A program made the position numbers and the translations under genes. From the IMG/VR virus record IMGVR_UViG_3300032249_001408, positions 1 through 26,235 of that record: 26,235 nt of DNA; one strand, 5' to 3'. The notes under the pieces were generated by a model. That model was given only the letters and a program-made list of their open reading frames with translations, was not told where the DNA came from and did not search any database. Shown here piece by piece: positions 6,369 through 20,237 of the stretch; within the stretch, counting starts at the first letter, position 1, and every line of letters starts with the position of its first letter. This DNA comes from a virus.

Positions 6369-6784
6369 CGAACCTTGGCCATAATTGACAAATCCTCTAT
6401 GTCAAGATAGGGATTCTCCGCAAGGCTTTCCCTCTGCTTCTTCAGCATTTCCACATTCTCGTTGGCCTTCTTCAAGGAAGACTCATTCGTTTTCTTGTAT
6501 TCCTCTATGACCTGCTTGTCCTTCGGATTGGACGGATCCAATATTTCCTCTTCGGATATGGAAACGATGTGATCCATGAAGAAGAAAGTCCGAAGCTTCT
6601 TCTCATTGTTCCACTGCTCCAGACATACGCCCCTGGAGTTCACCTCCAGCACCCTTCCCACGAAGTAGTGGAATACGGGCTGCGGAAAGGTCTGGGGGTT
6701 TTCCGATTTGAAATCCCTGTTCGTCTGCACAGTGAAAACGGTGCATATCTTTCCTACGAAATACTCAAGGCCTTCTATTTTCAT
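6365..6784 (-). CDS. Uncharacterised protein, possible small beta-barrel plus helical tail (139 aa)
   Basis: No family is recognised with confidence. Residues 1-75 look beta-rich (GKICTVFTV, FHYFVGRVLEVNSRGVCLEQ, RTFFFMDHIVSI), which by eye resembles an Sm/SH3-like small barrel. Residues 80-125 are charged and probably helical or coiled coil (KQVIEEYKKTNESSLKKANE). The ATG overlaps the stop of the DUF5659-like gene as ATGA, indicating translational coupling with the actin-like operon. It overlaps the converging primase gene by four bases. Confidence 0.6.
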   Translation of the reverse strand: MKIEGLEYFVGKICTVFTVQTNRDFKSENPQTFPQPVFHYFVGRVLEVNSRGVCLEQWNNEKKLRTFFFMDHIVSISEEEILDPSNPKDKQVIEEYKKTNESSLKKANENVEMLKKQRESLAENPYLDIEDLSIMAKVR

Positions 6785-6996
6785 GGAGTGTATTCGCCGA
6801 CCTTCTTCAGGGACATGATATAGGAGTCGAACCTGTGGAATTCGCTCGATAGATACTCGAGCTTCCTCTGCTCAAACTCCACTTCCTCCTGATCATTGAC
6901 TTCGAATATGAAGTCCCTACCCTTCCTGCCCACGACCTTGTGTCCGTGCATTAGGAGGTAGGCTCCAGCACCGAGGTCACTTACTGTCTTTTTCAT
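6781..6996 (-). CDS. DUF5659-like small protein (71 aa)
   Basis: The sequence (MKKTVSDLGAGAYLLMHGHK, then KGRDFIFEVND and a helical C-terminus) follows the pattern I know for DUF5659 proteins, short phage and bacterial proteins of unknown function with a K-T-x-D-L-xx-A-x-Y-L-L start. ATG at 6996 is preferred over the longer ATG at 7041 because AAGGAAG lies just upstream and the family pattern starts here; the longer form would add a lysine/arginine-rich extension overlapping the actin-like gene. It starts 22 bases after the actin-like gene stop and overlaps the next gene as ATGA, so it probably belongs to that operon. Confidence 0.65.
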   Translation of the reverse strand: MKKTVSDLGAGAYLLMHGHKVVGRKGRDFIFEVNDQEEVEFEQRKLEYLSSEFHRFDSYIMSLKKVGEYTP

Positions 6997-7018
6997 CTTT
7001 CTTCCTTTCTTTCTTTTT

Positions 7019-9160
7019 TCACTTCGCGTTTTCTGCCGCAATCAGGCAGCCTCTGGCTACCGAATAGAGAGGATCCTGCGGTCTGATGACCTCTCCTATC
7101 TTCATTGTAGTAATCTTGGACTGATCAAGTATAGTGCGGAACAGAACATCAAATCCCTTGGGCATGCTGGTGCCTCCCGCGATAACGATGTCTATCGGCT
7201 GTTCTGATCTCGCCTTGTTGCCCGCCTCCTCTATCCCCTTCTTGATCCCCTGCACAGTGTGTTGAATCATTATCTCATACTGGGCTTTTATCGCCCTTTG
7301 TACAAGAGTATCAGGATTATCAACTGTGAGATCGGAATGCATTTTTTCTCTGTTCACATAGGTCGTGGTCTCCTCGCCTATGGCCTTTGAAGCCATCTTG
7401 TCAATCCAGTCGCCGCTGTTTACTAGGGAAAACTGAAATATGGGAGCGCCGTACATCGAGTAGCAGAGATTCACCATACCAGCTCCACAATTTTTAATAA
7501 CCAGATTCGGCCCGCTAAAACTATGATCTTCTGCGACGCGCAAATCATGAACCAAACCAGTGTAGGGTTCGGTTTCTATTGATTTAACCTTTGACAACAT
7601 GAATCCATCTTTGACTTCATTTGTTATTCTTTTTTCAGGTCTTGAATTAGTATTTGTTTTGCGTTTGAAATTCAAAGATTTTTGCAAGGCATCAAATCCA
7701 ATTTGCGAACTTGTATTTACGCAAAAAGAAATTTTCTTACCCGAAATGACTCTGTTTTCCGATTCACAGTAATGACTTCTTGGTTCTCGAGAGTATAAAG
7801 AGGCCGCAATTCCACAACGCCCAAATAGTTGCTTGCACACATGAGCAAGATGAGAGTTTGAATTGAAGAAAGAAATGTGACTTTCTGAAACCATCCCGTC
7901 AGACTTTATCAAGCCAGAAAGAAGAGATTTGGCCTCTTGGTCATTCAAATGGCTGATTTCAAACGGACATTTTTTGAACTTGTCAAAATCGTAGCAGTTA
8001 TTTTTAAACCATTGGACAATTCCTTTTTGGTAGCACTTGATTCGCGTGCAATTTTCGCCCTTTTTAGTTTTGCTTGATTTTTTCCCGAAAACTTTTTTGA
8101 TTAGCCACATCACTCGTTCAATGTTATCATGTTCGTGATTGGCGAAATCTAGTTGAAAACAACCCTCTTTGAGATTAATGCTGCCGTCTCCCAAGAAATA
8201 ACCGATTAATTCACACATTTCTGGAGACAGATTGTAATGAGTTGATTTCCAAATTTTGGAACATGTATTTCTACTCAAAACCTCAACTTTAGGTCGTTCA
8301 ACTGAATCATTTTGTTCTTTTTCAATCGGCTCTCCAACTATGTCTCCGACTTTAATTTCTTCACAACCAATCCATTGCCACTGATTGTCTCGTAATACAT
8401 AAAGTTTGTGGTTGTCAACAAATTCGTAGCCCTCAGCGTATCCCCAAAGTTTGATTTTTGTTTTTGTTCCGCAAAAATATTGTGGAACAGTTTCGTAAAC
8501 AGTTCTCCATCTACCTTTGTGTGTAAAAACCTCGTCGCTCTCTTTTACATCCTCAATGTTAGTCAATCCTCGTTTGGTATATATTTTTGTTCCTGGAACT
8601 AGACAACTCACTCCCACCCCCGTCCAATTCTTGTTCTGAAGTTCTGCATAAACTAGCGCCAAAGCCTCATTGATTGGGTGTGCATCAACCTTGTATCCCT
8701 TTTCGCTTCGGTATGATCTGAACATGGCCTCAAGAACCTTGCTGTGGTAATCGGCATCGGTCTCTTGATTTATGGCGTTGGCGGGAACGGAGTAGTAAAG
8801 CGTCGTGTCATCCTCTTCTATTTCGCCTATGAGGCTGTGGCACATCACATTCATGATCTGCTGGGCGTGCCTTTCCCTGGGATTGAGGCATCCGTCCTTC
8901 ATCGGACGCTTGAGCTCTATCTGATTCATGGTGTATGCCATGTTGACGGCAGACTCGCCAAGGGCGTATCCCACATTTGATTCCTTGTTCTCTATCAGAG
9001 GGACGCCCGCGTTCTTCATCATGTTGAATACAAAACGATTGTCCAACGGCATTTCAAGAAAGGCATTGACCTCCCTCTTATAGACAAATTCATTGTCATT
9101 ATTTCTCTTACAAACCACTAGATTATATGTTCCGACATCCGCCCCGATTGCCTTGCTCAC
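7019..9160 (-). CDS. Actin/ParM-like filament ATPase interrupted by an intein
   Basis: The host protein after removal of the intein is 341 residues, the normal size of an actin/ParM-like protein. Visible ATPase motifs are the phosphate-1 loop (GADVGTYNLVV, residues 5-15), the phosphate-2 loop (GVGVS joined to CGAGMVNL) and the adenosine motif (IVIAGGTSMPKGF, residues 658-670). Residues 186-557 are an intein set into the phosphate-2 loop, so the unspliced chain should not bind nucleotide properly. Phage actin-like proteins (ParM, Alp families) form filaments that segregate or position DNA; that role is likely here. The start is GTG with AAAAGGAG upstream. The next two genes could be partners, but no obvious ParR or centromere-like iterons were found beside it. 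Confidence 0.85.
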   Translation of the reverse strand: MSKAIGADVGTYNLVVCKRNNDNEFVYKREVNAFLEMPLDNRFVFNMMKNAGVPLIENKESNVGYALGESAVNMAYTMNQIELKRPMKDGCLNPRERHAQQIMNVMCHSLIGEIEEDDTTLYYSVPANAINQETDADYHSKVLEAMFRSYRSEKGYKVDAHPINEALALVYAELQNKNWTGVGVSCLVPGTKIYTKRGLTNIEDVKESDEVFTHKGRWRTVYETVPQYFCGTKTKIKLWGYAEGYEFVDNHKLYVLRDNQWQWIGCEEIKVGDIVGEPIEKEQNDSVERPKVEVLSRNTCSKIWKSTHYNLSPEMCELIGYFLGDGSINLKEGCFQLDFANHEHDNIERVMWLIKKVFGKKSSKTKKGENCTRIKCYQKGIVQWFKNNCYDFDKFKKCPFEISHLNDQEAKSLLSGLIKSDGMVSESHISFFNSNSHLAHVCKQLFGRCGIAASLYSREPRSHYCESENRVISGKKISFCVNTSSQIGFDALQKSLNFKRKTNTNSRPEKRITNEVKDGFMLSKVKSIETEPYTGLVHDLRVAEDHSFSGPNLVIKNCGAGMVNLCYSMYGAPIFQFSLVNSGDWIDKMASKAIGEETTTYVNREKMHSDLTVDNPDTLVQRAIKAQYEIMIQHTVQGIKKGIEEAGNKARSEQPIDIVIAGGTSMPKGFDVLFRTILDQSKITTMKIGEVIRPQDPLYSVARGCLIAAENAK
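7490..8605 (-). mobile_element. LAGLIDADG intein in the actin-like gene (372 aa)
   Basis: The intein begins with Cys1 (CLVPGTKIYT, just after GVGVS) and ends LVIKN, followed by Cys+1 of the host protein. Block B His66 is present (FVDNHKLYV), though the usual Thr three residues before it is Val. Two LAGLIDADG motifs of a homing endonuclease are clear: LIGYFLGDGS (residues 133-142) and LLSGLIKSDG (228-237), both with the acidic catalytic residue. Block F reads VHDLRVAEDHSF. The penultimate residue is Lys rather than the common His. The coding sequence is visibly more AT-rich than the flanking host gene, pointing to separate origin and horizontal arrival. The element probably splices itself out and could spread by homing into intein-free alleles. 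Confidence 0.93.
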
Positions 9161-10845: not shown

Positions 10846-11694
10846 TCAGTCCTTCTCAAAAAAAGAGGGCAAATTTTCTAGACTTATATATTCGGCATTT
10901 TCATATTCTATTCCCGACGAGCAGTCCATCACCTCCACCCCGGCCTGCTTCATCCAGTATATCTGCTTGTCTATTATCCTCTGACACATTATCTGCTGGG
11001 GATACTGGTAAAGTCCGTTCTCCATTCTGACGGAGCCTGGTCGTTCATCCTCAAAGGCCTCGTCGCAGCAGAGCAAGGCTATTTTCCTGGCCCTGTTTCT
11101 CCATGCAAAGCTCAAGGCCGCACATATGGGGTTTCTGTAGTCGTCCAGCCTCATGCATTCATCCTGACCCACTCCGGAATAGTTCGAATCCTGGGAAGAT
11201 CTGTAGAACGCCGGCTGGCCTTCGTATTCCCTTATGAACTTGGGATTTGTCTTGGTGGACGCTATCAGGTTCGGATAGTACCTGTGTTTGCGGGGCAGGT
11301 ATCCGACGCACTCCCCGTAGGGATTGTTGACGAGATAGAAAGTCATGGTCCTCTTGACCTCGGCCTTTTCGCCAGCCATCTCCCATTTAGAAAGACTGCC
11401 GTTCACGCCTATCGTCTTGACCATCTTGTTGGGCATGCCGGCCAGAACCTTCTGCCGCTCCCTCCATCCGTATCCGTCCGAAAATATCACGAGATTTTCC
11501 ATATCCACGCGGTTCAGATCGTCCATGTTCATCCCCGAGACCTTCATGTTCTCGCACTCGTTCCAGAGAAAAAGACTAAGATCTGATCCGCCGAGAGAAT
11601 TTATGTCGATTGGTTTCGCATCAGAGCACAGATTTCTGACCCAAATACCTTCGGCAAGAATGTATTCGTTGTTTCTGTACTTCTTTATTCTCAT
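10846..11694 (-). CDS. Possible Rossmann-fold (DUF115/MptE-like) protein
   Basis: The 282-aa product has alternating hydrophobic strands and short loops: NLVIFSDGYGWRERQKV, KTIGVNGSLSKW, MTFYLVNNPYG, then a Tyr/Arg/Pro-rich loop and KIALLCCDEAF, with a C-terminal GVEVMDCS. The order (nucleotide-binding-like glycine loop, new-residue strand, visible-pose strand, D-E-A-F) reminds me of DUF115/MptE-like proteins, which are often linked to glycan modification, but no catalytic motif is certain. ATG at 11694 is chosen because it overlaps the previous stop as ATGA; in-frame ATGs at 11706 and 11724 are possible and none has a ribosome-binding site. It sits directly downstream of the repeat fibre gene, so a role in modifying that protein would make sense. 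Confidence 0.5.
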   Translation of the reverse strand: MRIKKYRNNEYILAEGIWVRNLCSDAKPIDINSLGGSDLSLFLWNECENMKVSGMNMDDLNRVDMENLVIFSDGYGWRERQKVLAGMPNKMVKTIGVNGSLSKWEMAGEKAEVKRTMTFYLVNNPYGECVGYLPRKHRYYPNLIASTKTNPKFIREYEGQPAFYRSSQDSNYSGVGQDECMRLDDYRNPICAALSFAWRNRARKIALLCCDEAFEDERPGSVRMENGLYQYPQQIMCQRIIDKQIYWMKQAGVEVMDCSSGIEYENAEYISLENLPSFFEKD

Positions 11695-14240
11695 TTTTTG
11701 TTGCATGGTACGAGGGCAAAACAAGCCTGCTCGTCTCCGCCCATAAGGTTGGACGCGTCAAACTGAATGGGTACGGGCCCGCCCTTGTAAACTAGTGGTA
11801 TTTCCAAGTTTTCAGGAACCTCTAGTCTCGCCACTATTTCGCTCGGCATCTTCACCTCTATCGAGTCGGGTATTCCGACCACCCGTATAAATTCGGGTAT
11901 TTCGGAGCCGTCCAGCCTGATTGCGGACGGTATGTCCACCGGGACGAGGCTTATGAATCCTGGGACGGCGGTTGCGTCTATCCTTATGGAATTCGGGACG
12001 CTAGAAGAGTCCAGCGCTATGACGCTCGGAATTACCGATTCATTGATTATCTTTATTTCCTTGGGTATCAGATCGGCTTGATAAAGAACGATCTTGTTGG
12101 GAATGTCCGACTTTATATCTATGAACTTCGGTATGTCATGCGTTATTTTTATGTCGGGAAATTTAGGCACAACAACCTTGATCTCCGAAGGTATCCCCAA
12201 GTCGCTTATTTCTATATCAAAGTTGTCGGTGTTGAAGTCATCCACGAAATTTTCATCAAGCGTATTTGCCCTTCTGAATCCGGCCGAACTAGAGCCTCCG
12301 CACTCCACGGTGACCACACAAGACAACGTCGGGACGTTTCCCCACTCTATGCTCACCTTTGGTGGATCGTCCCATGTCAACGAAGCAGTAATATTGCTAG
12401 GCACATCTCCCCAGGTGAACGATCCTGTCACGCTCGGAACATAATCGCCCCATGTGAACGATCCCGTTACGCTTGGCGTCGGCCCCCACTCTACAGATGC
12501 GGTTACACTGGGGGTATCGCCCCATGTAAACGATCCCGTTACGCTGGGGGTCGTGCCCCAATTAAATGAACTGGTTACCTTTGGCGGAGTGCCCCATATA
12601 AAACTAGCATTGGATATTTTCGGAGGCGTACCCCATACAAAACTAGCATCGGAAACCTTGGGGGGCGTACCCCAGTTGAAACTCGCTCCGGACACCTTGG
12701 GGGGCGTGCCCCAGTTGAAACTCGCTCCGGATAACTTCGGAGGCGTACCCCAGTTGAAGCTCGCGGGAGATATCTTAGGCGCGGGTCCGAAAGTGAAGCT
12801 CGCGGGAGATATCTTAGGCGCGGGTCCGAATGTGAAGCTAGCGGGAGATATCTTCGGCGCGGGTCCGAAAGTGAAGCTCGCGGGAGATATCTTAGGCGCG
12901 GGTCCGAATGTGAAGCTAGCGGGAGATATCGAGGGAGCCGGACCGAACGTGAAACTCGCGGGAGATATCGTGGGCGCCGGACCGAACGTGAAACTCGCGG
13001 GAGATATCGAGGGAGCCGGACCGAACGTGAAACTCGCGGGAGATATCGTGGGCGCCGGACCAAATGTAAAGCTCACCGGGGATATGCTTGGAGGCACGAA
13101 GGATATGACAGGAGGCACTATGTTTATTATGCTTGGAATATTTATGTCAGTGCCTATAGGCGATACATTCAAACAAGGAAACACTATCTGCGGAAGTTCA
13201 ATCTGCGGGTTTGGCTGCTGAAAATCTGGAATCGTTATGTCCGGGAAGTTGGGCACCTGGGGGATGGGCAAAACAAAAGTGGGCGTTTCCTGAACTTCTG
13301 GAACGCCCCCCTTCAGCCTTGAGATCGGGGTCTGCACCACGGTGCAATCGTCCCCGACCACAGTAACAACCGGATCTATATTCGAACCAGAAGCGTAGGT
13401 GTGCGTTCCCGACTGAATGGAGCTTGTCGACTGCCCGTCCCCAAAATCAAGGCTGAATGTGCTGAAAGTCCCATTCACGATGACGCTGTACTGCATCGTG
13501 GTTTCCCTGCATCCTTCCGGACCTTGAGACACATTTGTCTCCAAGGTCACCTCCGCACAGTAGGCATCGTCCGAACACACCGGCTCCTGCTCTAGCTTTG
13601 CTATTTTATCTTCCAGTTCAAAGATGTATTTTTCTACGGAAATCACAGCATCCACAAGCTGATTGTGATGTTCCGCCATAACAAAGCCCCTGACCCATGT
13701 CCCGGAAGGATTGAACTTGGTGGGCTTTCCGCCCATGCTCCTCAGGCACCTTTTGAGTTTGAATATTTTGCCCTGTAGTTCTAGGGTTGTCAAACCTTCC
13801 TCGTAACCAATCCCAGGACGGACAACCTCCACTCTTTCTATTGATCCGCCCGACACAACAGCCTTCAGCCTGGCGCCGGTACCCTTGCCTTTTACCGCCA
13901 TCTCCGGCAGGCAGTATCCTTGTCCCCCGTTCAGCACAGATACGGACAAGATGGAACCCTTTGAATCCAACCTGACATTGCCGAATGTGGCTCCGCTTCC
14001 TGCGGGATCGTTTCTTTCCACCGTGTCGTAGTAGAACATCTCCCCGGATATGTTGGCAAAGCCGTTTTCTGCCCATATCTCTGGCTGGCAGTGTCCCACG
14101 GGGGCTATCTGTATTCCCTCCTCCCAGGCCGAGTTCTCTGCGGCCGTTTTGGCCTCGCTCGTGTTATAAACGAGATAGAGAGTTCTGTCGGAGTCCAGTG
14201 CTAGTGGGTATGCTATCTGCGGGGGGAATCCTGTTGGCAT
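11691..14240 (-). CDS. Repeat-rich fibre/adhesin-like virion protein (849 aa)
   Basis: This is the third of three tandem paralogues. Residues 1-215 carry the shared N-terminal module (YPLALDSDRTLYLVYN, then the AEHHNQLVDAVISVEKY motif followed by a short coiled coil). Residues about 235-315 are PKD-like (FSLDFGDGQ, THTYASG). A Pro/Ile-rich linker leads to a long array of 13-residue repeats, residues about 388-645: eight SFTFGPAPxISPA copies, then SFNWGTPPKxSxA and SFTWGDTPSVTG variants. A second array, residues about 670-815, repeats DIPxxIxL-type units. No enzyme motif is seen. Both arrays suggest extended beta structure, as in fibres. A role in host attachment or capsid/tail decoration is inferred. 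There is no Shine-Dalgarno site before the ATG at 14240, ten bases after the previous stop. Confidence 0.75.
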   Translation of the reverse strand: MPTGFPPQIAYPLALDSDRTLYLVYNTSEAKTAAENSAWEEGIQIAPVGHCQPEIWAENGFANISGEMFYYDTVERNDPAGSGATFGNVRLDSKGSILSVSVLNGGQGYCLPEMAVKGKGTGARLKAVVSGGSIERVEVVRPGIGYEEGLTTLELQGKIFKLKRCLRSMGGKPTKFNPSGTWVRGFVMAEHHNQLVDAVISVEKYIFELEDKIAKLEQEPVCSDDAYCAEVTLETNVSQGPEGCRETTMQYSVIVNGTFSTFSLDFGDGQSTSSIQSGTHTYASGSNIDPVVTVVGDDCTVVQTPISRLKGGVPEVQETPTFVLPIPQVPNFPDITIPDFQQPNPQIELPQIVFPCLNVSPIGTDINIPSIINIVPPVISFVPPSISPVSFTFGPAPTISPASFTFGPAPSISPASFTFGPAPTISPASFTFGPAPSISPASFTFGPAPKISPASFTFGPAPKISPASFTFGPAPKISPASFTFGPAPKISPASFNWGTPPKLSGASFNWGTPPKVSGASFNWGTPPKVSDASFVWGTPPKISNASFIWGTPPKVTSSFNWGTTPSVTGSFTWGDTPSVTASVEWGPTPSVTGSFTWGDYVPSVTGSFTWGDVPSNITASLTWDDPPKVSIEWGNVPTLSCVVTVECGGSSSAGFRRANTLDENFVDDFNTDNFDIEISDLGIPSEIKVVVPKFPDIKITHDIPKFIDIKSDIPNKIVLYQADLIPKEIKIINESVIPSVIALDSSSVPNSIRIDATAVPGFISLVPVDIPSAIRLDGSEIPEFIRVVGIPDSIEVKMPSEIVARLEVPENLEIPLVYKGGPVPIQFDASNLMGGDEQACFALVPCNKK
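11790..12235 (-). repeat. Degenerate array of IP-x-x-I repeats
   Basis: Near the C-terminus of the 849-residue protein, roughly 12-14-residue units of the form (D/E/V)-I-P-x-x-I-x-I/L follow each other: DIPKFIDIKS, DIPNKIVLYQ, LIPKEIKI, VIPSVIALDS, VPNSIRIDA, VPGFISLVP, IPSAIRLDG, IPEFIRVVG. DNA copies are diverged, so this is seen mainly at protein level. The pattern suggests a beta-strand repeat with Pro at each turn. Boundaries are approximate. Confidence 0.7.
12330..12762 (-). repeat. Diverged 36-39-bp repeats (WG-type)
   Basis: This is the older-looking half of the main array. Units encode SFNWGTPPKVSGA, then SFNWGTTPSVTG and SFTWGDTPSVTG, with period slipping from 13 to 12 residues and some units altered (SVEWGPTPSVTG, SLTWDDPPKVS). 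Trp-Gly replaces the Phe-Gly of the neighbouring copies. Left boundary approximate. Confidence 0.8.
12763..13074 (-). repeat. Eight tandem 39-bp repeats with 78-bp higher-order pattern
   Basis: Exactly eight 39-bp units fill 312 bases; each encodes SFTFGPAP-x-ISPA with x being Lys, Thr or Ser. Sequence variants alternate: units ending GTGAAGCTC and GTGAAGCTA take turns in one half, and Thr/Ser units take turns in the other. This points to duplication of 78-bp dimers rather than single units, and to recent expansion. Confidence 0.9.
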
Positions 14241-19340: not shown

Positions 19341-20237
19341 TTAACTTGAACTTGAACTTGAACTTGAACTTGAACTTGAACTTGAACTTGAACTTGAATT
19401 CGGGGGGAGAATCATTTTGTCAAAATCTATCCTTATCACATCGCTCGGCGAGATAGACCTGTTGAGCCTAAAAGTGCCGCCTTCAGGGCTCTCCGATTCT
19501 ATATATGTGCCGACCCATGCCGATGAAGGGAAAACAACAATGCCTCCCGAATTGGGCACGGTCACAGAAGAGGCCGAATAGCTTAGGACTTTTACGGGAA
19601 CCTTTGTTATTCTCGCTCCGTTCACATAGACCCTGAGCGACCCCTCCACGAAGGGCGTGTTCACCGCAGTGGTTCTGTAGTTTCTGTACGAGGGGCCTGA
19701 CGGAACATCGTATGCGGGGATGAGATCGTAACTGTGTCTGTGAGCAGCGTCGGGAGGGAACACAGAATGCAGGCGAACCGTGTCCGGACTCTGAAACTCC
19801 ATGAATATCGTGGAAGACTTCCTGATACGCAAGATTCCGTTGCTTCCGGCGGGAGGGACGGTAAAAAAATCGCCGGAACCCTCGATCTCTATCTCAAGCT
19901 TGTTCGCCTCGCTTCGGACGCCATCCAGTTTGGCTCGCTCCTCGTCTGTCATTCGGACGAAACCGTCGCCGTCAGCATGGCTTGCTATGCTGTGGTTGGC
20001 ATTGTTCACCGCGTCGGCCTTGATGTCCCCGGCATCGTCTAGAGACTTGTCAAGCCTGGCATTGAGCGATCCGGCACTTCCGGATGCCCCACGAAGAATG
20101 TCGGTGTTTGTGTCAACCTGTATGTTGACAAGACCGATCCTGTCCAAGATGTTCCTCAGGGGCAGATTGTCATAGTGGACATGGTAGGGCTGATCTGCCT
20201 GGTAAAGAACCTCGGGTATGCTTTGGATGTCGGGCAT
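19341..20237 (-). CDS. Tail-fibre-like protein with poly-Ser C-terminus (298 aa)
   Basis: Residues 1-110 read like a phage fibre or baseplate-attached module (YQADQPYHVHYDNLPLRNIL, DRIGLVNIQVDTNTD, ASHADGDGFVRMTDEERAKL). The rest is beta-rich (GILRIRKSSTIFMEFQS, GSLRVYVNGARITKVPVKVL, DVIRIDFDKMILPPN). It ends in 18 consecutive Ser residues encoded by a hexanucleotide repeat, with TAA following at once. No enzyme motif. CGAGGA lies before the ATG. A 66-base gap separates it from the preceding gene, with no clear promoter or terminator in it. A structural tail protein is likely. Confidence 0.7.
   Translation of the reverse strand: MPDIQSIPEVLYQADQPYHVHYDNLPLRNILDRIGLVNIQVDTNTDILRGASGSAGSLNARLDKSLDDAGDIKADAVNNANHSIASHADGDGFVRMTDEERAKLDGVRSEANKLEIEIEGSGDFFTVPPAGSNGILRIRKSSTIFMEFQSPDTVRLHSVFPPDAAHRHSYDLIPAYDVPSGPSYRNYRTTAVNTPFVEGSLRVYVNGARITKVPVKVLSYSASSVTVPNSGGIVVFPSSAWVGTYIESESPEGGTFRLNRSISPSDVIRIDFDKMILPPNSSSSSSSSSSSSSSSSSS
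19344..19397 (-). repeat. ACTTGA hexanucleotide microsatellite (9 copies, poly-Ser)
   Basis: Nine perfect copies of ACTTGA on the plus strand read as alternating TCA and AGT Ser codons on the minus strand, giving 18 Ser. The tract runs straight into the stop codon TAA, which differs by one base from the next expected TCA unit. Changes by whole units would lengthen or shorten the tail without shifting the frame. Confidence 0.95.

Follow-up and report, generated by a model that had tools for sequence, protein, structure and literature searches.

A volactin gene of a virus is interrupted in its phosphate-2 loop by a 372-residue intein, which is most probably a functional class 1 element that homed into the gene recently. 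The gene lies on a viral record of 26 kb (IMG/VR IMGVR_UViG_3300032249_001408; its 26,235 nucleotides are called the window here) that also encodes baseplate and tail proteins and is therefore probably part of the genome of a large tailed phage. With the window copy included, at least 16 distinct inteins occupy the same junction in volactin genes.

Architecture of the Precursor and Its Intein

The open reading frame at 7019-9160(-) has 713 codons and no internal stop. The intein comprises precursor residues 186-557, its removal leaves an extein of 341 aa, and its GC content is 37% vs. 48% in its own extein. The main features are as follows.

7019..9160 (-), precursor ORF with GTG start, volactin split by the intein, 713 aa
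9167..9174 (-), ribosome-binding site AAAAGGAG, 6 nt upstream of the GTG, read directly from the sequence
8606..9160 (-), N-extein, 185 aa, last residues TGVGVS, matching PF25216 profile positions 2-172
7490..8605 (-), 372-aa intein, LAGLIDADG endonuclease inserted in a Hint splicing domain (Pfam, motifs, model)
7019..7489 (-), C-extein from C+1 (CGAGMVNL...), 156 aa and stop
8567..8605 (-), block A, C1-LVPGTKIYTKRG
8408..8419 (-), block B core V63-D-N-H66, with Val at the Thr position
8183..8209 (-), LAGLIDADG motif 1, LIGYFLGDG, with D140
7895..7921 (-), LAGLIDADG motif 2, LSGLIKSDG, with D236
7490..7558 (-), blocks F and G, GLVHDLRVAEDHSFSGPNLVIKN
7493-7495 (-), K371, the penultimate residue
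7490-7492 (-), N372, the last intein residue

The limits and length of the intein given in the original prediction proved exact by ORF, Pfam and residue positions, and its reading of the LVIKN end, with Lys for the penultimate His, and of two intact LAGLIDADG motifs is borne out by K371-N372 and by the catalytic Asp kept in each motif (D140, D236). Pfam recognizes two LAGLIDADG_3 stretches in the precursor (PF14528, 44 bits, cut-off 22.5); matches to Intein_splicing and Hint_2 both lie under their cut-offs. Structural matches of the endonuclease include I-DmoI and PI-SceI, and the model of the whole precursor, in which confidence is only moderate in the intein part, resembles the intein endonucleases TliVMA, PI-SceI and PI-PfuI and also MreB and ParM.

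The residues at positions 1 and +1 are those of a class 1 intein (C1 and C+1). Block B keeps the His of its TxxH motif and has Val for Thr, an assisting residue that is not obligatory. Block F contains D354 and H361, and block G ends in K371-N372 directly before C+1, so that D354, H361 and N372 are kept and the penultimate His is replaced by Lys. A single sequencing error could not have produced this Lys, because the change from His (CAT/CAC) to Lys (AAA) requires two base changes.

The Host Protein Is a Volactin

Volactins are a family of actins named from Haloferax. The extein matches the volactin family PF25216 on both sides of the intein (192.4 bits, cut-off 35), an intein-free relative, L070, scores 211.6 bits against the same family, and the extein is 32-34% identical to homologues on haloarchaeal plasmids, whose loop reads S-F-G-A-G-M. 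Searches of solved structures with the extein, by single sequence or by profile, gave no match, and fold comparison and an MreB profile alignment were therefore used. The model of the intein-free L070 protein (pLDDT 87) has the actin fold, matching MamK (Z 29.2), MreB (Z 26), BeeR and crenactin. The earlier description of the host gene as actin-like is thus made more precise by the family assignment and supported by the fold of its relative. Volactin of Haloferax forms dynamic filaments (PMC10869688), and by analogy the phage volactins may do so too. Among the viral contigs that carry relatives the longest has 533 kb, and relatives also occur in two records of uncultured phages (595 and 485 kb).

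In 84 of 94 loci a small gene lies 3' of the volactin gene, with tandem copies in L099 (7534-7989). Its product belongs to no clear family and is a possible candidate partner of the volactin filament.

6784..7041 (-), small gene adjoining volactin, 86 aa as listed (68 aa in the matched part), present in 84/94 loci

Two contigs from MAG bins, L099 (Neisseriaceae) and L100 (Verrucomicrobiales), also carry volactin genes. The possibility that L099 is a cellular carrier was rejected because its neighbouring genes follow the phage gene order, and its bin label is therefore probably wrong. Elsewhere in the window, a long tail-region protein (11691-14240(-)) has repeats of about 14 residues (SFTFGPAPSISPA) followed by SFNWG repeats, and similar repeats occur in L099; another tail-region protein (19341-20237(-)) has a C-terminal run of about 18 Ser, and at the edge of the contig (99-521(+)) an ORF encoding Met-Arg repeats is probably a simple DNA repeat.

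The Intein Interrupts the Phosphate-2 Loop

In a profile alignment with a Verrucomicrobial MreB, volactin G-I-S|F-G-A-G-M is aligned with V-D-I-G-G-G-T of MreB, which sets S-F-G-A-G-M opposite D-I-G-G-G-T and places the intein between the Ser equivalent to Asp and the next residue. This alignment confirms the phosphate-2 loop as the insertion site. Where the actin phosphate-2 motif has Asp, every volactin seen in phages and haloarchaea has Ser (L070 and its relatives, L103 and L104 included). Since every one of the 161 loops that the search pattern retrieved has it, as do the haloarchaeal homologues, this Ser is, on the aligned sequences, a feature of the volactin family.

The comparison with intein-free relatives that the original prediction had proposed shows an uninterrupted loop. 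L002 and L070, the closest intein-free relatives at 94% identity, read G-V-G-I-S-F-G-A-G-M, and the intein-free proteins align over the join without gaps; the intein is an in-frame insertion at a conserved site and is missing from these homologues. The site is empty in 90 distinct relatives, where Ser is followed by F in 61 cases and by C in 25, and the Cys that would remain at +1 after splicing should therefore be tolerated. It is a reasonable inference that unspliced volactin cannot bind nucleotide and that splicing is needed.

An Intein Family at One Junction

The search for the same insertion site among phage actin-like proteins, also proposed beforehand, returned 15 further distinct inteins, 14 of them complete, after the same invariant Ser; in all 14 relatives with a known 3' end the intein stands directly before C-G-A-G-M. 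The intein family was found only when a two-sequence alignment served as query, and the window intein alone retrieved no relative and no close copy from IMG/VR. An intein in an actin-like gene had been called unusual, and it does appear to be unreported, but with at least 16 inteins at this junction it is not an isolated case. Identity between the carrier volactins falls as low as 28-35%, and the divergent ones (L086, L087, L088, L117, L120) have extein identities of about 28-48% outside their own pairs. The inteins of such divergent volactins are more alike than the exteins (58% vs. 28% for L082 and L120), as for a mobile element, with which this pattern would fit.

The Val in block B, which had been put forward as a peculiarity of the window copy, is indeed present but is common to all 15 relatives. 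Because all 16 inteins share it at the Thr position, it is by this comparison a family trait and not a mark of decay. The intein C-terminus, by contrast, is IHN in 14/14 relatives with a known C-terminus, and IKN is unique to the window.

Inteins were also seen in other genes. A terminase-like phage ORF with two inteins occurs in L094 (2-4264) and L097, and a DNA cytosine methyltransferase-like ORF in L096 (3909-5762) contains an intein directly 5' of the C in the catalytic P-C motif (GGVP|C; C-extein C-Q-A-W).

The window intein is the outlier of the volactin family. It is 44-49% identical to every other member, and the others are 52-79% identical among themselves. Of 96 positions otherwise invariant in the family, 20 are changed in the window copy and 0-5 in each of the others; the departures of the window copy lie in both the splicing and the endonuclease parts and include H371K, Y353H, C110L and C337L, and many are mild (I/L, L/V, W/F). 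Residues 110 and 337, Cys in all other complete inteins and Leu in the window, are possibly a contact pair. The terminal branch of the window intein (1.09) is the longest of the family (median 0.27), and that of its extein is 0.06. This status fits faster or relaxed evolution, and it also fits an unsampled deep lineage. The exteins of the window and L080 are 88% identical, and their inteins had therefore been expected to be sisters; the AU test (p 0.445) does not reject this grouping, nor do the data establish it, so that acceleration in place and independent acquisition are both compatible with them.

Flanking DNA Points to Recent Homing

The DNA around the window gene is mostly 96-100% identical to that of L070. 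A divergent tract, from about -115 to +41, lies at the junction inside this otherwise 96-100% identical sequence.

8606..8720 (-), divergent tract on the N side, read as a co-conversion footprint
7448..7489 (-), divergent tract on the C side; beyond it, from +42, 462 bp are identical to L070

Changes private to the window number 16 in 157 bp at the site vs. 19 in 2432 bp elsewhere (Fisher p about 2e-11, with tract boundaries chosen after looking at the data), and the bin from -120 to -1 holds 14 of them vs. 0-4 in the other listed bins. From about -720 to -120 it is mostly L070 that is the odd one, and other recombination must therefore also have occurred. A donor of the divergent tract was looked for without success, no sequenced candidate fitting it better than the intein-free kin. 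A tract of this kind is the trace expected from co-conversion, and it suggests recent homing.

Splicing, Mobility, and Alternative Readings

In the mechanism proposed for this intein, the 713-aa precursor would be translated and splicing would start at C1, with transfer of the N-extein to C+1. Cyclisation of N372 would release the intein and restore the 341-aa volactin, with G-V-G-V-S-C-G-A-G-M as its phosphate-2 loop. With K371 present, Asn cyclisation would probably lean on the block F His, H361. The LAGLIDADG domain would make the intein mobile, by cleaving intein-free volactin genes of phages that infect the same cell. From the residues that are kept, the window copy is predicted to splice and its nuclease to cut the empty site.

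Mycobacteriophage inteins are known in which the penultimate residue is Gly, Lys or Ser; the tested Gly intein splices fully and is slowed by a change to His, and the block F His is able to take over, the penultimate His being assisting and not obligatory (PMC5050341). As a non-His mycobacteriophage intein splices fully and H361 is kept, Lys371 gives no ground to expect that splicing is slow or conditional. The original prediction had suggested that splicing might be of this kind and act as a timing switch. In such a switch Lys would slow Asn cyclisation until a cue (redox, pH, temperature or infection stage) released it, and filaments would form late. The site within the nucleotide-binding motif, where unspliced protein should be inactive, and the influence of the penultimate residue on splicing speed in one phage intein (PMC5050341) speak for such a switch. 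However, Lys is found in only 1/15 inteins with a known C-terminus, intein-free phages manage without a switch, the non-His residue was the faster one in the tested phage case (PMC5050341), and the present results show neither a cue nor a benefit. A timing switch based on slow or conditional splicing is therefore neither supported nor favoured, and we consider it very unlikely. Equally improbable is the wider proposal that the intein is kept as a control of filament timing, with loop splicing gating assembly and H371K retuning the gate.

A decaying intein, in frame but splicing poorly, so that much volactin would stay unspliced or be cleaved at the N-junction, is rather unlikely, if less so than a switch. 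Its departures at invariant positions in both parts, with H371K and C110L/C337L among them, and its long branch would agree with decay. Yet all 372 codons are open, C1, H66, D354, H361, N372, C+1 and both LAGLIDADG Asp are kept, and many of the changes are mild. Moreover, the intact extein has stayed similar to its kin, which makes it probable that its product is needed, and the flank suggests recent homing and hence recent activity in the donor lineage. The low GC of the intein relative to its flanks and the lack of a close copy in IMG/VR could also be explained if the intein of another phage had been joined into the volactin gene during assembly. Such an artefact is highly improbable: both joins are perfectly in frame, at the junction used in 15 other precursors, and the flanking tract is identical to no other contig.

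Relation to Known Systems and Significance

The window intein shares its arrangement with the class 1 LAGLIDADG inteins TliVMA, PI-SceI, PI-PfuI and PI-PkoII, which likewise combine a Hint domain with an inserted endonuclease and have C1, the block B and F His, the terminal Asn and Cys+1; with PI-PkoII there is also a weak sequence match. It differs from them in its volactin host, in the Val that its family has for Thr at B:7 and in the penultimate Lys of the window copy. The inteins of Bethlehem gp51 RDF and other mycobacteriophage genes (PMC5050341) are also phage class 1 inteins with a non-His penultimate residue (Gly, Lys, Ser), but they reside in other host genes, and the rest of the volactin intein family keeps its His. 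VolA (HVO_2015) of Haloferax volcanii belongs to the same family as the phage volactins (PF25216), and the haloarchaeal plasmid homologues have the same S-F-G-A-G-M loop. By contrast, the phage volactins are encoded by tailed phages, whereas polymerization is known for the Haloferax protein and the haloarchaeal copies were seen without an intein.

No published report of an intein in an actin-like gene, or of a phage volactin, was found, which is weak evidence given the incomplete coverage of the literature. Inteins and volactins were each known before; what is apparently new is their combination, and the presence of volactins in large phages. The inteins described here form a new family of mobile elements in a host gene apparently unreported so far. 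With them the actin superfamily joins the genes invaded by mobile inteins, again at the most conserved catalytic motif. With 16 or more allelic inteins sharing a site across diverse phages, and with many empty sites, the family offers a ready system for testing inter-phage homing, the tolerance of the penultimate residue and the role of phage volactins.
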